Assembly: GCA_017527205.1 (NCBI GenBank)
Contig: JAFXQK010000041.1
Coordinates: forward strand, 62,001-126,000
Origin: Lachnospiraceae bacterium
GTDB lineage: Bacteria; Bacillota; Clostridia; Lachnospirales; Lachnospiraceae
DNA length: 64,000 nt
Direction: 5' to 3'
Positions within the stretch are counted from its first letter, which is position 1; each line of letters begins with the position of its first letter. A program made the position numbers and the translations under genes. Under the pieces are notes generated by a model, which saw only the letters and a list, made by a program, of their open reading frames with translations, searched no databases and had not been told where the DNA came from. Shown in pieces: positions 10,380-62,937 of the stretch.

Positions 10380-11922
10380 TTCTTTTCCACCCGTCATAGA
10401 CGGCGTGGCGAACGTAGTAATGAATTATGCAAGGATCATGCAGGAGGAAGGGCTTGCGGAGCCTATGGTTGGGACGCCGCGCTATCCTGACGCAAAGTAT
10501 GATGATTTCCCTTATCCCGTGGTGCCATATCACAGCATTGACACGACGGCCATCGTCAGTGGGTATCGCGCGGGAAATCCCTTTGATGGTAAGGCAGCCG
10601 CGGAGATGGCGGAATTTTGTCCTGATATCATACATAGTCATTGTCCCGTCTCATCAACGCTGATGGCCCGCATTCTTCGCAAGGAGACGAATGCCCCGCT
10701 GATCTTTACCTATCACACGAAATTTGACGTAGATATCGCCAGGGCGATTAAGGCAAAGTCCCTGCAAAAGGAGAGTATCAAATTTTTGGTGGATAACATT
10801 TCCGCCTGCGATGAGATTTGGGTGGTCAGCGGAGGCGCAGGCGAGAATTTACGCTCCCTTGGATATGAGGGGCGTTATCGCGTCATGCCGAATGGCGTGG
10901 ATTTTGCCAAGGGACGGGTAGATGCACAGGGCGTCGCGGAGGCAACAAAGGATTATGATCTTCCTGAAGGCGTTCCCGTATTCCTGTTTGTTGGCAGAAT
11001 CATCAAATACAAAGGCTTGCCGTTGATCCTGGATTGCATGAAGCTTTTAGACGGCGAGGGCATGGATTTCCGCATGGTATTTGTCGGAAGCGGACCGGAT
11101 GCGGAGGAATTGCAGGAAAGGACGAAGGAGCTTGGACTTAGTGGCAAGGTATTCTTTACTGGCGCCATCTATGATAGGAACGTACTTCGCGCGTGGAATA
11201 CTCGCGCAGATCTTTTTTTGTTCCCCTCGACCTATGACACGAATGGGCTTGTGGTTCGTGAGGCTGCGGCCTGTGGCATTGCCAGCGTTCTGATTCGGAA
11301 TTCCTGTGCCGCGGAGGGCATTACGGATCTTAGAAATGGGTATCTCATCGAAGAAAGTGCCGAGGCGATGGCTGGGTGCCTCAGAGAGGCCTGCAAGGAT
11401 CTTAACAGGATTCATGAGGTTGGACAAAATGCCATGGATGAGATTTATCTTTCGTGGGAGAGCGCGGTGAGAATGGCAGTAGAACGCTATGGAGAGGTCA
11501 TAGAGCTTCATCGGAGCTGCTCCATGACCGAGCGAAAATATCAGCCGTCGGATCACTTTTTTGACATGGCAGCAGGGCTGTTAAGTGCATCGAACAAAGT
11601 GTCTGAGGCTCCGAGAAAATGGTATGAAGGTATGTTGGAAAACGTATCTGACATGAAGGAGAATCTCTCGGAAGCCAAGGATACCTTTGTGACGGGGGTC
11701 AAAAAGACAAGGGATCATATCGCTGGACATATCCAGGATGCTAAGGATAGTATTGCGGATCACATTCAAGATGCCAAGGATAGCATTACGGATCGCATGC
11801 AGGATGCCAAGGACAGCATCACGGATCGCATGCAGGATGCCAAGGACAGTATCACGGATCGCATGCAGGAGACGAAGGAAAGCGCAATCACTTTAGTTCA
11901 GGACGTGAATGGAATAAAATAA
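10357..11922 (+). CDS. GT4-family glycosyltransferase (glycolipid synthase-like) with 11-residue repeat tail
   Basis: 521 residues. The N-terminal Rossmann domain begins MKVTLLNDSFPPVIDGVANVV; the C-terminal donor-binding domain has FVGRIIKYKGLPLILD, FVGSGPD and the EX7E-like motif FPSTYDTNGLVVREAAACG (about 290-310). This is the organisation of 1,2-diacylglycerol 3-glucosyltransferases and related mannosyltransferases; the acceptor is inferred, not shown. After the catalytic domain (about residue 390) comes an extension ending in five tandem 11-residue units of the type DRMQDAKDSIT (457-511), predicted amphipathic helix that could lie on the membrane surface. The start overlaps the preceding gene by 23 nt; an AAGGAGG lies upstream. 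A GH13 glucosidase follows after 20 nt. Confidence 0.85.
   Translation: MKVTLLNDSFPPVIDGVANVVMNYARIMQEEGLAEPMVGTPRYPDAKYDDFPYPVVPYHSIDTTAIVSGYRAGNPFDGKAAAEMAEFCPDIIHSHCPVSSTLMARILRKETNAPLIFTYHTKFDVDIARAIKAKSLQKESIKFLVDNISACDEIWVVSGGAGENLRSLGYEGRYRVMPNGVDFAKGRVDAQGVAEATKDYDLPEGVPVFLFVGRIIKYKGLPLILDCMKLLDGEGMDFRMVFVGSGPDAEELQERTKELGLSGKVFFTGAIYDRNVLRAWNTRADLFLFPSTYDTNGLVVREAAACGIASVLIRNSCAAEGITDLRNGYLIEESAEAMAGCLREACKDLNRIHEVGQNAMDEIYLSWESAVRMAVERYGEVIELHRSCSMTERKYQPSDHFFDMAAGLLSASNKVSEAPRKWYEGMLENVSDMKENLSEAKDTFVTGVKKTRDHIAGHIQDAKDSIADHIQDAKDSITDRMQDAKDSITDRMQDAKDSITDRMQETKESAITLVQDVNGIK
11725..11889 (+). repeat. Five tandem 33-bp coding repeats (11-residue amphipathic units)
   Basis: Units start at 11725, 11758, 11791, 11824 and 11857. 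Units 3 and 4 differ by a single base, while units 1, 2 and 5 are diverged, which suggests recent expansion. Encoded consensus DxxQDAKDSIT has an 11-residue helical period, as in perilipin/YtxH-like amphipathic helices. Confidence 0.85.
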
Positions 11923-17089: not shown

Positions 17090-18328
17090 ATGAAAATGCA
17101 AATCATGAAAAAGAAAGAATCACAAGGAATTACCAAACAGGAATCCGCGATGCTGCAGGGCATCGCGGTCCTTTTGATGATCTACCATCATTTTTTCAAT
17201 GATCTTTCCATCCATGGAGAAAGTCTGCGGTTTTGGAATGCGGAAGTTGTGATACGCTTTGCTTGGTTTGGAAAGATTTGCGTTGGCATTTTTGCGTTTG
17301 TGAGCGGCTATGGCATGTTCAAGGTGTTGGAACACAAATCTGGCGGAGCCATTGTAAAGCGTTGCGTCTCGCAGACGTTGGGACTTCTCATCCGGTATTG
17401 GATCGTGCTGCTTGTCTTTATGGGAGCATTTTTTTCGATGGGAAAACGAAGCTTTGAGCCTCGTGAATTTCTTCAGAATTTCTTTTGTGTCAGCGATTCC
17501 TACAACGGCGCCTTTTGGTATGTGCAGGAATATGTGTTTTTCATGCTGTTACTTATCTTGGTCCATGGTTTTTTTGCAGCCTTCTCGAAAAAAGGCGAAG
17601 CTACAAGGGGCAAAGGCATATTGAAGATTTTTTATGGCATCTTAGTAGTTGCCGGCCTGCTTTGGCTTGGCTTATCCGCCGTGCTTCCCTCAGTGAGAGA
17701 GTCTTTAAAGCTTTGCCTTGATACCATTCGCATTGCCTTTGTTCTCGTCTTTTTCATGGGCTATTTTTCTTCGAGATTTCACACCTTTGAGAGCCTTTTT
17801 GATAAGCTTTACATTTTGAGTTTTAGTGCTAAGGATCATGGCGCCAAGAGTAATAATGCTCAGAGTTATAGTACTCAGAACAATAGCTTTATAAATTACT
17901 TTCTTCAAAGGCTCTTGGGATTTCTGCTTTGCGGCGCCGTCATGACTCTTCGGATGCTTCTTGCCGATGCTCCATCCTATGCACGCCTTGACTTTTTGTT
18001 TGTACCGGTCTTTGCACTCGGACTCATCATGCTTTTCTACAAAAGAACCGATGACGGGAAATCCGTACCAGGTCTTCTTGGTGCCCTGTTCGAACGTCTA
18101 GGTCACCTTTCCGTTTACCTTTGGCTCACACATTTATTTGTATTTGATATAACGAAAGACCTTATATATAAAATAACGAACTCACATTTCATCTTCTTTT
18201 TGCTGGAAGCCGCCATCTGTATTTTTGTTGGCTACACCTGCTATCTGGCGGAATACTATGCCAAAAATCTGGCTTCTTCTATCTGCAAAATAACTAAAAC
18301 TACCAAAAACGGCGAAATGTCAAAATAG
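17090..18328 (+). CDS. Acyltransferase 3 (OafA-like) membrane protein
   Basis: 412 residues with about ten hydrophobic segments. The N-terminal MLQGIAVLLMIYHHFFND carries the conserved histidine-containing first helix of the acyltransferase-3 family, followed by FAFVSGYGMFKVL. These enzymes O-acylate cell-surface glycans or peptidoglycan; the substrate here is unknown. A hydrophilic Ser/Asn-rich insert lies near residues 245-265. The last 10 codons run into the first copy of the 62-nt hairpin array (18300-18580), so the C-terminal residues KTTKNGEMSK are repeat-derived. RBS AGGGGAAGC. Confidence 0.85.
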   Translation: MKMQIMKKKESQGITKQESAMLQGIAVLLMIYHHFFNDLSIHGESLRFWNAEVVIRFAWFGKICVGIFAFVSGYGMFKVLEHKSGGAIVKRCVSQTLGLLIRYWIVLLVFMGAFFSMGKRSFEPREFLQNFFCVSDSYNGAFWYVQEYVFFMLLLILVHGFFAAFSKKGEATRGKGILKIFYGILVVAGLLWLGLSAVLPSVRESLKLCLDTIRIAFVLVFFMGYFSSRFHTFESLFDKLYILSFSAKDHGAKSNNAQSYSTQNNSFINYFLQRLLGFLLCGAVMTLRMLLADAPSYARLDFLFVPVFALGLIMLFYKRTDDGKSVPGLLGALFERLGHLSVYLWLTHLFVFDITKDLIYKITNSHFIFFLLEAAICIFVGYTCYLAEYYAKNLASSICKITKTTKNGEMSK

Positions 18329-18580
18329 GTAGCCTTTTCAAAGCGGAATAGATTCGAAAAACTACCAAAAACGGCGAAACGTCAAAATAGGTAGCCTTTT
18401 CAAAGCGGAATAGATTCGAAAAACTACCAAAAACGGCGAAATGTCAAAATAGGTAGCTTTTTCCAAGCACGATCGATTAAAAAAACTACCTAGAAAAGAT
18501 AATCCTTAAATATGGTAGCTTTTCGAAGAAATGGCAAGAAAAAAAGACTACCTACATTTGCGAAAATGCAATGTAGGTAG
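18300..18580 (+). repeat. Five hairpins at an exact 62-nt period
   Basis: CTACC begins at 18300, 18362, 18424, 18486 and 18548, and GGTAG begins exactly 28 nt later each time (18328, 18390, 18452, 18514, 18576). Copies 1-3 are nearly identical over the whole 62 nt. Copies 4 and 5 have different interiors and spacers but keep the spacing and the paired ends. The last is a full 33-nt hairpin. Each GGTAG is followed by several T. Copy 1 lies inside the acyltransferase coding sequence. This is not a CRISPR array, because the intervening parts are also repeated. Confidence 0.85.
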
Positions 18581-18586: not shown

Positions 18587-18611
18587 ACTTCCATAGATCC
18601 TAAGGGGAAGG

Positions 18612-18716
18612 GGATCCATGATCTAAAGTGGATCCATGATCTAAAGTGGATCCATGATCTAAAGAAAATCCATAATCTAAAGGGTCCCATAACCCAAAAG
18701 TTAGTCATAACCTAAA
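18612..18716 (+). repeat. 18-nt tandem repeat, degenerate at the right
   Basis: GGATCCATGATCTAAAGT at 18612 and 18630, and with one change at 18648; a fourth, diverged unit follows at 18666, then two more decayed units up to about 18716. No coding function supported. The rest of the gap up to typA (18717-18800) is AT-rich with no feature I can name. Confidence 0.8.
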
Positions 18717-18800
18717 GGGTTGCAGCAAGAAAGCTTTATGCTTTTGCCTTAAGTTTTAGCTTTAAGTTATGGCTTTATATTTTGACGGAATGTCTCAAAA

Positions 18801-20633
18801 TTACTTCTTGAAGCTTGCACGTTTGCGAAGGGTAGGGTCGAGGATCTTCTTGCGGATGCGGAGATTCTTGGGAGTTACCTCGAGAAGCTCATCCGTGTCA
18901 ATAAAGTCCAAAGCCTGCTCCAACGACAAGATCTTTGGAGGTACGAGTCTTAAGGCTTCGTCAGCAGAAGAGGAGCGGGTATTCGTCAGCTGTTTTTTCT
19001 TGCAGACGTTGATCTCGATGTCCTCACTTCTTCCCGTCTGACCAACAACCATGCCGGAGTAAACCTTTTCACCAGGTCCGATAAAGAGCAGTCCGCGCTC
19101 CTGCGCATTAAAGAGGCCGTAAGTGATTGCCTCGCCAGCCTCAAATGCGATCAGGCTTCCCTGCTTTCTATACTGGATGTCTCCCTTGTAGGGCGCATAA
19201 TCATCAAAAACCGTATTCAGAATACCATTTCCCTTGGTATCCGTCATGAACTCGCCGCGATAGCCGATCAGTCCTCTTGCGGGGATGGAGAACTCCAGTC
19301 TGGTGTAGGTGCCGCCGGAAATGGCTCCCATGTTGCGAAGCTCACCCTTTCTCTGACCGAGCTTTTCAATGACCGCACCAGCGTAATCATTGGGAACGTC
19401 AATGTAAGCGAGCTCCATGGGTTCCAAAAGCTTTCCGTTCTCATCATGATGATAGAGAACCTCAGCCTTACTTACGGCGAATTCAAAGCCTTCACGGCGC
19501 ATATTCTCAATTAAAACAGAAAGATGCAGCTCGCCGCGGCCACTAACTTTAAAGCAATCCGTATCCTCTGTCTCCTCAACACGGAGCGATACGTCCGTAT
19601 TCAGCTCGCGGAACAGACGCTCGCGAAGATGGCGGCTGGTGACATATTTTCCTTCCTGACCGGCAAGAGGAGAATCATTTACCATGAAATGCATGGCAAT
19701 GGTGGGCTCACTAATCTTCTGGAACGGAATGGGAACAACATTTTCAGGAGAGCAAAGAGTATCTCCAATGTGAATGTCGGAGATGCCGGAGATGGCTACG
19801 ATGGAACCGATATTAGCCTCCTTTACCTCGACCTTGTTCAAACCGTCGAATTCATAGAGCTTACTAACCTTTACCTTGACCTGTTTGTCAGGCTCATGGT
19901 GGTTACAAATGATAACTTCCTGATTCACCTTAATGGAACCATTATCTACCTTACCAACGCCGATGCGTCCGACATATTCATTGTAGTCAATGGTGCTGAT
20001 CAGTACCTGCGTACCTGCCTCGGGATCTCCTTCGGGAGCGGGAATGTAGTTCAAAATAGTCTCAAACAGAGGCTCCATGTTGGTGCCGGGGGTTCCGGCC
20101 TCCAAAGAGGCGATACCAGCCTTCGCAGAAGCGAAAACGAAGGGGCAATCCAGCTGAGAATCATCTGCATCCAGTTCAAGGAAGAGCTCTAGCACTTCAT
20201 CCACAACCTCGTCAGGACGCGCTTCAGGACGGTCGATTTTATTGATGCAGACGATGACGGGAAGCTTCAATTCCAATGCCTTGCGAAGCACGAACTTCGT
20301 CTGGGGCATGGCTCCCTCAAATGCATCTACAACAAGAATTACACCGTTCACCATCTTTAAGACACGTTCAACTTCACCGCCGAAATCTGCATGACCGGGA
20401 GTGTCAATGATGTTAATTTTTGTTCCCTTGTAGGTAACTGCCGTGTTCTTTGACAGAATGGTAATGCCGCGCTCACGCTCAATGTCATTCGAGTCCATGA
20501 CACGCTCTGCAACCTCTTGACCAGCACGGAACACGCCGCTCTGCTTTAAGAGCTCGTCCACGAGGGTCGTTTTACCGTGGTCTACGTGAGCGATGATTGC
20601 TATGTTTCTGACGTCTTCTCTTTTTTGTCTCAT
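18801..20633 (-). CDS. typA: Ribosome-associated GTPase TypA/BipA
   Basis: A 610-residue translational GTPase of standard length. G1 is AHVDHGKTTLVDELL, G2 region ERGITILSKNTA, G3 DTPGHADFGGEVERVL, G4 NKIDRPEARPDEV. Then come EF-G-like domains and the BipA C-terminal domain (RKGELRNMGAISGGTYTRLEFSIPARGLIGYRGEFMTDTKG). It binds the ribosome and is needed for growth under stress or low temperature. It is alone on the minus strand, with a consensus promoter upstream and a small hairpin (20656-20674, GAGCAGG/CCTGCTC) in its leader. Confidence 0.96.
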   Translation of the reverse strand: MRQKREDVRNIAIIAHVDHGKTTLVDELLKQSGVFRAGQEVAERVMDSNDIERERGITILSKNTAVTYKGTKINIIDTPGHADFGGEVERVLKMVNGVILVVDAFEGAMPQTKFVLRKALELKLPVIVCINKIDRPEARPDEVVDEVLELFLELDADDSQLDCPFVFASAKAGIASLEAGTPGTNMEPLFETILNYIPAPEGDPEAGTQVLISTIDYNEYVGRIGVGKVDNGSIKVNQEVIICNHHEPDKQVKVKVSKLYEFDGLNKVEVKEANIGSIVAISGISDIHIGDTLCSPENVVPIPFQKISEPTIAMHFMVNDSPLAGQEGKYVTSRHLRERLFRELNTDVSLRVEETEDTDCFKVSGRGELHLSVLIENMRREGFEFAVSKAEVLYHHDENGKLLEPMELAYIDVPNDYAGAVIEKLGQRKGELRNMGAISGGTYTRLEFSIPARGLIGYRGEFMTDTKGNGILNTVFDDYAPYKGDIQYRKQGSLIAFEAGEAITYGLFNAQERGLLFIGPGEKVYSGMVVGQTGRSEDIEINVCKKKQLTNTRSSSADEALRLVPPKILSLEQALDFIDTDELLEVTPKNLRIRKKILDPTLRKRASFKK

Positions 20634-50699: not shown

Positions 50700-51359
50700 A
50701 TGAATCATCAGCAAAAGAAAATTTTAAGCGGCGTGCTGACCGTCGTTATGATCTTGGTTATTTTCTTCCTTCGCCAATCCATCTTTCAAAACGGGCTAGG
50801 GAATGGCGCAGGAGAGGGTGAGGATGGCAGCGTTGTAATCCTTCAAACCTCAGAGGCAACCTATCAAGAGGAATCGCAGGAAGCAAAGGCGAAGACGGAG
50901 CAGACGGCGAAGCCAGAGCAAACGGTCAAACCGGAAAAGACGGCGAAACCAGAGCAAACGGTCAAACCGGAAAAGACGGCGAAGCCAGAGCAATCGATCA
51001 AACCGGAAAAGACGGCGAAGCCAGAGCAAACGGTCAAACCGGAAAAGACGGCAAAACCCGATCAAACGACAAAATCAAGCGAAACAGAACAATCGCTCAG
51101 GTTTCGAAGCAAGAAGCTCTTAAATCAACACTATGAAAAACATGGAATTGAGATGGGCTTTGAATCTGCGGCAGATTACGAGGCCGCTGCTGCGGCGGTC
51201 GTAGTCAATGAAGACGCGCTACACAAGACGGAAAAAGAAGACGGTGATGATATCTACTATCTCGAAGAGACCAACGAATTCGTGGTTGTCTCCAAGGACG
51301 GATACCTCCGCACCTACTTCCTCCCCGACGCAGGCATCAAGTACTATAACAAGCAATAA
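50700..51359 (+). CDS. Membrane-anchored repeat protein with toxin-like C-terminal domain
   Basis: 219 residues. An N-terminal anchor (KKILSGVLTVVMILVIFFLRQS) suggests export, then a Lys/Pro/Glu/Thr-rich spacer of 12-residue repeats (TAKPEQTVKPEK, about 69-128), then about 85 residues with the pattern LNQHYEKHGIEMGFESAADY, HKTEKEDGDDIYYLE, TNEFVVVSKDGYLRTYFLPDAG. That layout, with an early His pair and a late DGxxRTYF strand, resembles BECR-fold RNase tips of polymorphic toxins. Activity is an inference. RBS AGAGGTAAAG. No obvious immunity gene follows. Confidence 0.6.
   Translation: MNHQQKKILSGVLTVVMILVIFFLRQSIFQNGLGNGAGEGEDGSVVILQTSEATYQEESQEAKAKTEQTAKPEQTVKPEKTAKPEQTVKPEKTAKPEQSIKPEKTAKPEQTVKPEKTAKPDQTTKSSETEQSLRFRSKKLLNQHYEKHGIEMGFESAADYEAAAAAVVVNEDALHKTEKEDGDDIYYLEETNEFVVVSKDGYLRTYFLPDAGIKYYNKQ
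50904..51047 (+). repeat. Four 36-bp coding repeats
   Basis: Units start at 50904, 50940, 50976 and 51012, each encoding TAKPEQTVKPEK with few base changes; a fifth decayed unit begins at 51048. Good site for copy-number variation by slippage. Confidence 0.88.
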
Positions 51360-60582: not shown

Positions 60583-62937
60583 ATGACGCTTAGAGAATTA
60601 GAAATTGGACAAACTGCAGAGATTTTAGAGGTACAGGGTGAGGGTGCGCTCAGGCAGCATCTTTTGGACATGGGACTGCTCCCGGGGGCGGAGATTCGGA
60701 TAGTCAAGTACGCGCCTATGGGAGATCCCATGGAGGTACAGATTCATGGATATGAGCTTACGCTTCGTCTTGCGGATGCAGAGCAGATTCTTGTGAGCAT
60801 CCAAAAAAATGACGGTGAAAAAAACGCTAAGTTGCAAGGCGGCGAGACTCGGAAAAAGAAAATTGAGCATCCTGGTCTTGGCGAGGGCGGCAGATATCAC
60901 GTCAAGGAGGGCGAGACGCCTCTGGCAGAAGGGACGACTTTGACCTTTGCCTTGGCTGGAAATCAGAACTGCGGAAAGACGACGCTGTTTAATCAGTTGA
61001 CAGGCTCGAATCAGCACGTAGGCAATTTCCCGGGTGTTACGGTAGATCGTAAGAGCGGTGCCATTAAGGGAACGACAAACACGGAGATCACGGATCTTCC
61101 CGGCATTTATTCGCTCTCGCCCTATAGCAGCGAGGAAATTGTGACTCGTCAGTTCCTGATTCAGGAAAAACCGACGGGTATTATCAATATCGTGGATGCA
61201 ACGAACATCGAGAGAAATTTGTATTTGACCATGCAGCTGATGGAGCTAGAGGTTCCGATGGTGCTTGCGCTGAACATGATGGATGAGGTTCGGGGAAATG
61301 GCGGTTCCATTGACGTAAACCGCATGGAGGCGGCATTGGGAATTCCCGTCGTACCCATCTCTGCTGCGAAGAATGAAGGCGTGGATGAGCTGGTGACTCA
61401 TGCACTTCATGTTGCAAAATATCAGGAGAAGCCGGGACGAACGGACTTTTGTGATTCCGGGGACAATGGAGGTGCAGTGCACAGGTGCCTCCACGGCATT
61501 ATTCATTTGATCGAGGACCATGCGAAGATGGCAGGGATTCCCGTCCGTTTCGCGGCAACAAAGCTGGTGGAGGGGGATTCGCATGTCTTAAAAGCGCTGA
61601 ACCTGGATCAGAATGAGCAGGAGATGTTAGAGCATATCATCAGCCAGATGGAACAGGAGAGGGGACTTGATCGCGCGGCAGCCATCGCAGACATGCGCTT
61701 TTTGTTCATTGAAAAGCTGGTCAAGGAATCCGTGGTGAAGCCGAGAGAGAGCAAGGAGCATGAGCGAAGCAGAAGAATTGATAAGCTGCTCACCGGCAAA
61801 TATACGGGTATTCCGCTGTTTGTCCTGATTATGGCGCTTGTATTTTGGCTGACCTTCCATGTCATTGGTGCGTTTTTCCAAGGACTTTTGGAACAGCTTG
61901 TGGAGCTTGGGGCGGCATGGACGGAAAAGGCGTTCACTGCGTGGGACGTCAACGAGACGGTGCAATCCCTTGTCTTGGACGGCATTTTTGCAGGCGTTGG
62001 CAGCGTGATCAGTTTTTTGCCGCTCATCGTTACGCTGTTCTTTTTCCTGTCACTATTGGAGGATACGGGATATATGGCCCGCGTGGCCTTCATCATGGAT
62101 AAGCTGCTTCGAAGAATAGGACTGTCGGGGCGAAGCATTGTTCCCATGCTGATCGGCTTTGGCTGTACGGTGCCTGGCGTTATGGCGACGAGGACCTTAC
62201 CGTCAGAGAGAGACAGAAAAATGACGATTTTGCTGACGCCGTTTATGAGCTGCTCGGCAAAGCTGCCGATTTATGGCTTCTTTACCGCAACCTTCTTCCC
62301 AAAGTATGCGGGACTGATTATGGTAGGCCTGTATTTTCTGGGAATTCTTGTTGGCATCTTGACGGCGCTGGTGTTCAAAAACACGCTGTTCCGCGGCGAG
62401 GCCGTGCCGTTTGTGATGGAACTGCCGAATTATCGTCTGCCAGGTTGGAAGAATGTCATGCAGCTTCTCTGGGAGAAGGCGAAGGACTTTTTGCAGAGGG
62501 CATTTACGGTGATCTTTTTGGCCACCATCATTATCTGGTTCCTGCAGACCTTTAATCTGAAGCTTTCCGTTGTGACAAATTCCAAGGACAGCATTTTGGC
62601 AGGAATTGCGGGCTTGGTTTCACCGATCTTTCTGCCTTTGGGCTTTGGAGACTGGCGGATTTCAACGGCTCTGATCAGCGGCTTTATGGCGAAGGAGAGC
62701 GTAGTTTCAACGCTGTCGGTGCTGTTTGGCTCCGCAGAGGCACTAAGAAGTGCGCTGGCGCCTTCAGCGGCGGGCGCGTGCCTGACATTTTGTCTTTTGT
62801 ATACGCCCTGCGTGGCGGCCGTGGCTTCCGTTCGCAGGGAGCTTGGAAAGAAATGGGCGCTGTTTATGGTGCTGGGCCAGTGCGGCATTGCATGGGTATG
62901 TGCGCTGATCATGAGAGGCATTATGATGATATTTTAA
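60583..62937 (+). CDS. feoB: Fused FeoA-FeoB ferrous iron transporter
   Basis: 784 residues. Residues 1-75 are a complete FeoA SH3-like domain (MTLRELEIGQTAEILEVQGEGALRQHLLDMGLLPGAEI). After a charged linker comes the FeoB G-domain: G1 GNQNCGKTTLFNQLTG (from about 126), G3 DLPGIYSLSPYSSEE, G4 NMMDE. Then comes the membrane channel with about nine helices and the two Gate motifs (LIGFGCTVPGVMATRTL; LLYTPCVAAVASV). It imports Fe(II) across the cytoplasmic membrane. Fusion removes the need for separate FeoA expression. No FeoC or Fur site seen. Confidence 0.94.
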   Translation: MTLRELEIGQTAEILEVQGEGALRQHLLDMGLLPGAEIRIVKYAPMGDPMEVQIHGYELTLRLADAEQILVSIQKNDGEKNAKLQGGETRKKKIEHPGLGEGGRYHVKEGETPLAEGTTLTFALAGNQNCGKTTLFNQLTGSNQHVGNFPGVTVDRKSGAIKGTTNTEITDLPGIYSLSPYSSEEIVTRQFLIQEKPTGIINIVDATNIERNLYLTMQLMELEVPMVLALNMMDEVRGNGGSIDVNRMEAALGIPVVPISAAKNEGVDELVTHALHVAKYQEKPGRTDFCDSGDNGGAVHRCLHGIIHLIEDHAKMAGIPVRFAATKLVEGDSHVLKALNLDQNEQEMLEHIISQMEQERGLDRAAAIADMRFLFIEKLVKESVVKPRESKEHERSRRIDKLLTGKYTGIPLFVLIMALVFWLTFHVIGAFFQGLLEQLVELGAAWTEKAFTAWDVNETVQSLVLDGIFAGVGSVISFLPLIVTLFFFLSLLEDTGYMARVAFIMDKLLRRIGLSGRSIVPMLIGFGCTVPGVMATRTLPSERDRKMTILLTPFMSCSAKLPIYGFFTATFFPKYAGLIMVGLYFLGILVGILTALVFKNTLFRGEAVPFVMELPNYRLPGWKNVMQLLWEKAKDFLQRAFTVIFLATIIIWFLQTFNLKLSVVTNSKDSILAGIAGLVSPIFLPLGFGDWRISTALISGFMAKESVVSTLSVLFGSAEALRSALAPSAAGACLTFCLLYTPCVAAVASVRRELGKKWALFMVLGQCGIAWVCALIMRGIMMIF

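Follow-up and report, generated by a model that had tools for sequence, protein, structure and literature searches.

Intergenic tandem hairpin arrays with kept spacing and pairing and variable sequence in a Lachnospiraceae genus

Between two convergent genes of a Lachnospiraceae bacterium, five short inverted repeats follow one another at a period that is exact to the base, even where the sequences within and between them differ. The locus raises the question of what is being kept, whether a sequence, a transcription signal, or a geometry, and by what process. We addressed this question in a 64,000-nt window (the whole stretch of DNA that was analyzed, positions 62001 to 126000 of contig C45 of the genome designated G000), in the rest of that genome, and in its relatives.

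The array between the acyltransferase and typA genes

The motif CTACC-N23-GGTAG occurs five times at the window locus, with starts at 18300, 18362, 18424, 18486, and 18548, giving an exact 62-nt period with a 23-nt loop and a 29-nt gap in every copy. With up to one mismatch allowed, these five occurrences compare with a mean of 0.59 and a maximum of 3 in dinucleotide shuffles. The 33-nt units lie at 18300 to 18332 (unit 1; folding energy, −7.1 kcal/mol on the plus strand and −9.7 on the minus strand), 18362 to 18394 (unit 2; −10.8 and −12.8), 18424 to 18456 (unit 3; −11.5 and −10.7), 18486 to 18518 (unit 4; −6.9 and −12.4), and 18548 to 18580 (unit 5). The 29-nt spacers between them lie at 18333 to 18361, 18395 to 18423, 18457 to 18485, and 18519 to 18547. 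Copies 1 to 3 are nearly identical. Copy 4 has the arms and spacing of the others and an interior unlike that of copies 1 to 3, and the third spacer has diverged in sequence; copies 4 and 5 have other loops and spacers yet retain the lengths of 23 and 29 nt. T-rich stretches lie 3′ of copies 1 to 5 (CCTTTT, CCTTTT, CTTTTT, CTTTT, and TTTTTT, respectively).

The array is flanked by a plus-strand open reading frame (ORF) for a membrane acyltransferase (17090 to 18328; Pfam match to Acyl_transf_3) and by a convergent, minus-strand ORF for the typA/bipA GTPase (18801 to 20633; Pfam BipA_C). The acyltransferase stop codon, TAG at 18326 to 18328, falls within copy 1, and the last residues of the protein (about TTKNGEMSK) are therefore encoded by the array. 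Only this first unit overlaps an ORF end; the array is otherwise extragenic. On all of these points (the recurrence of CTACC every 62 nt with GGTAG at a fixed offset, the spacing held by the divergent copies 4 and 5, the T-runs, and the absorption of copy 1 into the acyltransferase C terminus), the first-pass annotation of the locus proved accurate.

The same annotation had described the hairpin interiors as covarying, and this description did not survive. Interior pairing among 30 dissimilar G000 units was not above that of arm-swapped controls (p = 0.25), and the interior covariation score was matched by 49 of 500 shuffles. Most hairpins thus have a 5- to 10-bp stem closing a long loop and are of low stability; folded alone, copies 1 to 4 reached −7 to −11.5 kcal/mol on the plus strand. 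Copy 5 alone folds into a hairpin that is both perfect and strong (−23.7 kcal/mol; z = −8.8, listed as −8.75 / −8.02), with an 11-bp stem that has an A-run on its 5′ side and T6 on its 3′ side on the plus strand. Taken as a whole, the array is more stable when folded than its shuffled versions, whichever strand is considered (z = −6.1 and −6.7), as expected from inverted repeats. The 31-nt spacing of dyad centers was rejected as added evidence because any one arm pair repeated every 62 nt produces it; the geometry evidence counted here consists of the period and the arm offset only. Membership in a known Rfam family (Rfam 15) was also rejected, there being no array match above the gathering score.

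A family of arrays in one genome and its relatives

A search of the genome and its relatives for CTACC-N23-GGTAG, as the first-pass annotation had proposed, found that the array is not unique, contrary to the single occurrence that would have counted against the geometry reading. Twelve further intergenic loci in G000 have the arms and spacing of the window array: C7, C8, C10, C13 (two), C32, C33, C38 (three), C55, and C76. The genome holds about 65 units, from one per locus (C7 and C55) up to eleven; a similar solo hairpin is present in C35. CTACC-N23-GGTAG was found 41 times per strand in G000 versus 14 times for the reversed control, and the array pattern 49 times in the forward direction versus 0 for the control. 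With a covariance model derived from 35 units, 80 matches were obtained in G000, and those listed all lay within known loci. Every period-62/63 array detected by TRF over 464 kb of G000 was a member, indicating that the family is not motif-driven. The 13 loci lie between convergent genes (C45 and C13a), divergent genes (C8, C76, and C13b), or codirectional genes (the other eight).

Units are homogenized within G000 arrays, the edges of which are degenerate, and many of these arrays have a recognizable common consensus, most units reading AAAAGCTACC...GGTAGCTTTT. When loci are compared, unit sequence other than arms and A/T tracts has a mean identity of 49% (26 to 83%), no better than random for some pairs; identity in the arms is 98%, a figure that is partly by construction, most loci having been found via the arms. 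The C33 array shows near-random identity outside the arms and still holds seven copies at exact spacing, and the C10 array has five copies of CAACC/GGTAG with one mismatch.

We searched 138 genomes of the genus with two arm patterns and wider groups with the CTACC double unit only. Across 19 arrays from six genomes (G000, G069, G100, G128, G133, and G155), 78 of 84 gaps measured 29 nt and the other 6 measured 28 nt; two misread arms excepted, the loop was 23 nt (52 units), 24 nt (32), or 22 nt (7). Units within an array are not independent, and the fair sample size is the number of arrays. The period ranged from 61 to 63 nt, so the "invariant" 62 nt of the first-pass annotation applies to the window and not to all 19 arrays. 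A family unit is thus a 33-nt stem-loop (an arm of about 5 nt, a loop of 22 to 24 nt, and the second arm) plus a 29-nt spacer, with arms of alternating orientation recurring about every 31 bp.

The arms themselves change between relatives. G155 has CAACC/GGTTG arms at a 62-nt period, and G069 has CAACA/TGTTG arrays along with GACTACC/GGTAGTC arrays at other sites. CCTC/GAGG arms (G128, G152, and G100) and CGGCG/CGCCG arms (G133) show a span of 33 and a gap of 29 nt in nearly all units; these two types were spotted beside GCAAC arrays and not by an unbiased scan. Of random 62-nt tandem units, 6% would contain an arm pair of 5 bp with a 33-nt span. In G100, the first unit of the array at the orthologous typA locus is CAACATA/TATGTTG (33 nt) where G000 has CTACC/GGTAG, two of the five core pairs being changed on both sides. 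Across the family, therefore, arms stay complementary and the spacing is held, whereas the sequences of arms, loops, and spacers vary, and the central claim that geometry is kept without sequence extends from the window to the 12 other loci and to relatives with unrelated complementary arms.

The exact double-unit CTACC pattern, sought in 84,980 species, was found in one other record, the metagenome-assembled genome of Acetatifactor sp. Tb.RUG.447 (G069; JAEEVF010000005.1; genus Acetatifactor, Lachnospiraceae), and G000 is in the same genus group; in this search, which covered the CTACC double unit only, the CTACC arm type seems to be limited to the clade. G069 also has a single mixed-arm unit, CAACA/GGTAG, at C7:830570-830610, between trpF-like and trpB-like genes in operon-like order.

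The layout of most units, an A-tract, a stem-loop, and a T-tract, resembles that of intrinsic terminators, and the arrays could be tandem bidirectional terminators in which each unit stops transcription and duplication raises efficiency. Window copy 5 and the last G100 unit are strong hairpins with T-runs, and close relatives have a plain terminator at the typA locus. Against this, the arrays have short, weak stems and loops of about 23 nt. Copy 5 approaches the intrinsic-terminator form (GC-rich stem, short loop, and T-run) but copies 1 to 4 do not, and a terminator scan flagged none in 18300 to 18580. The window array lies at 3′ gene ends, but three of the 13 loci (C8, C76, and C13b) lie between divergent genes. 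Arrays in G133 and G069 lack the T-run, with tails such as GGTAGTCATTTGCGC; at C13a and C38c the upstream G000 gene keeps its own terminator-like hairpin besides the array; and a fixed 29-nt gap is unnecessary for termination. The divergent loci, the T-run missing in some relatives, and the separate terminators at two array sites indicate that termination is not the general role, and the tandem terminators suggested by the first-pass annotation are, as such a role, unlikely. Unit 5 (18548 to 18580) is nonetheless a candidate bidirectional terminator, given the A-run before and the T6 after its 11-bp stem, and transcripts of both convergent genes probably also end at this last unit.

Gain and loss of arrays

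Array loci differ between close relatives. The closest genome found, G128, is 92% identical to G000 over rimP-nusA. In G128, eight sites (C13a, C8, C38b, C38c, C55, C76, C7, and C32) have the two flanking genes without an array between them, and the typA locus has one ordinary hairpin and no array, so that arrays are missing at 9 of 9 comparable sites. The C38a site (L285 in G128) was left out of the comparison because the contig ends too early. The 35-unit covariance model gave no match in G128. The typA locus also lacks an array in G011, G133, G152, G155, and G069, most of which have a simple terminator-like hairpin there. G100, compared at seven sites, has an array at the typA locus only. 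A near-perfect long hairpin with 26-nt arms lies between the G100 array and typA (L125 in G100:C134, 2925 to 2988) and was not seen at the locus in G000.

G128, G152, and G100 have in common a homologous composite array, about 415 nt long, in which four GCAAC units precede three CCTC units. These seven units are 71 to 83% identical among the three genomes, and arm positions are 76% invariant versus 59% elsewhere. The neighbors of the array, named by inspection, are not the same: G128 has the S10 operon, G100 a BlaR1-like gene, and G152 another gene. These differing contexts fit either movement of the array in one piece or rearrangement of its margins; because two of the three copies are near contig ends, the context is incomplete. 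More generally, the assemblies are drafts in which arrays are often at contig ends (G155:C28 end, G133:C56 start, G133:C108 end, G069:C5 end, and G100:C309 start), making the copy numbers minimal; hairpin arrays seem to break assembly, so that copy number is underestimated.

A non-autonomous mobile element, REP/BIME- or MITE-like and moved by a hairpin-recognizing transposase, would be in keeping with the dispersed intergenic copies, the lineage-specific loci with none at the matching G128 sites, and the different genes that adjoin the homologous composite array. However, the Y1 transposase domain PF01797 is missing from the 99.4% complete G000 (control genomes were positive), inspection of neighboring ORFs showed no transposase, no target duplications were identified, and the double-unit pattern was not found in viral contigs. 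We consider movement of this kind quite unlikely. A phage origin was rejected because the double-unit GCWAC pattern had no match in viral contigs.

Alternatively, the arrays may be a neutral satellite, in which an ancestral 62-bp repeat dispersed and diverged with few indels while homogenization and templated quasi-palindrome correction kept the arms paired without selection. The near-identical copies inside arrays with degenerate edges, the consensus common to many G000 arrays, and the absence of arrays from the closely related G128 would all be expected of such a repeat. The composite array has 1 to 2 gap runs per 69 to 118 substitutions, which is not clearly below the 5 per 171 in alignable non-coding flanks; this is compatible with neutrality, and the shortage of indels was rejected as proof of selection. 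The retention of arms where the remainder is at random-level identity (a contrast due in part to the construction of the search) and the occurrence of unrelated arm types with one span and gap argue the other way, and we judge the neutral account unlikely.

Differing short tandem arrays repeatedly adjoin the hairpin arrays. Directly 3′ of the window array is an 18-nt tandem array (GGATCCATGATCTAAAGT; about 4 copies; 18608 to 18682); degenerate copies then continue to about 18714, and a 13-nt repeat occupies 18732 to 18777. The composite array upstream of the S10 operon is flanked by 22-nt (CTCGTGTTTTTAGCTGATAATC) and 13-nt tandem arrays (L171 in G128:C8, 1206 to 1403 and 1999 to 2089), and a 16-nt array, GATAAGGCATTGGCAG, abuts a CAACA/TGTTG array (L169 in G069:C8, 1167 to 1263). 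Elsewhere in the window, tandem repeats of 36 bp (50902 to 51068) and 33 bp (11734 to 11870) have units that are multiples of 3 and are probably coding.

A proposed role and comparison with known systems

Our tentative preference is for the arrays as a BIME-like extragenic tandem hairpin family of one Lachnospiraceae genus, kept for pairing and spacing through recognition of shape. The arrays would grow and shrink through slippage or unequal exchange and occasionally disperse to new intergenic sites, while selection or templated copying would preserve pairing and spacing. The first-pass annotation had invoked selection on geometry rather than mere slippage: with 12 other loci, the window array is not a lone slippage product, but its homogenized copies indicate that slippage or unequal exchange takes part. 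The phased hairpins, whether as cruciforms, single-stranded DNA, or duplex with arms on one face, may be recognized via shape and spacing, by analogy with BIME-2 arrays serving gyrase and other DNA-shaping factors. Successive arms, about 31 bp apart, are separated by nearly three turns of B-DNA and would thus all face one side, and the exact gap is more than an RNA role alone would need. A factor reading CTACC would hardly tolerate CAACA, CCTC, or CGGCG, which favors shape reading; the phased protein binding of the first-pass annotation is thus difficult to reconcile, in its sequence-specific form, with arms of changing sequence, but a factor that reads the shape of phased DNA may be involved. 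Common descent with few indels could account for some of the constancy in spacing. A more specific version, which we think rather unlikely, is that an enzyme or architectural factor measures the hairpin geometry (33-nt stem-loop and 29-nt gap) and not the sequence and builds or maintains the arrays throughout the chromosome, with the paired arms drifting freely.

If the shape-recognition reading is right, Firmicutes gain a class of repeats that conserve spacing and pairing but not sequence, whereas ordinary repeat families do the opposite. The existence of several arm types at one geometry, together with one locus at which arms changed in matched fashion, would provide a natural experiment on whether bacterial extragenic arrays act through DNA shape and on whatever builds them, and such families would be split or missed by sequence-based repeat finders. 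The open-access literature yielded nothing relevant on comparable arrays in Lachnospiraceae or Firmicutes.

CRISPR arrays have a similar period (about 61 to 62 nt, as about 29 plus 33), but here both segments are homogenized, there are no unique spacers, and no repeat is exactly common across loci. Type III toxin-antitoxin RNA repeats (ToxI-like) are likewise short, tandem, and structured, with repeats shorter than the 62-nt units; no toxin-like gene was recognized beside the arrays by ORF inspection, and the window array, lying between the convergent acyltransferase and typA genes, has no toxin gene immediately downstream. Among the traits of REP/BIME elements is binding by gyrase, IHF, or Pol I. 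These elements, especially BIME-2, are extragenic, palindromic, tandem, and regularly spaced, with alternating orientation; they are unevenly distributed between close strains and species, and complementary stem changes have been reported in them (PMC2817692, PMC3733652). GTAG REPs have an unpaired GTAG tag beside a compact hairpin with a loop of 2 to 20 nt, usually number more than 100 copies, and often occur with a RAYT (PMC2817692, PMC3733652); their survey lists no Firmicutes, and some REP hosts have lost the cognate RAYT (PMC3733652). The hairpin arrays share with REP/BIME elements the extragenic location, palindromic units, alternating orientation, regular spacing, tandem arrangement, uneven occurrence among relatives, and complementary stem changes. 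They differ in that GTAG belongs to the base-paired 3′ arm, GGTAG (the ends of other arms being GTTG, GAGG, or CGCCG), in having about 65 units, no Y1 transposase, and a 22- to 24-nt loop, and in their fixed 33/29 geometry; a RAYT-driven REP was rejected because PF01797 is not in the genome. BIMEs are the nearest known kind, from which these arrays are set apart by the position of GTAG, the absence of Y1, the long loop, and the host group.
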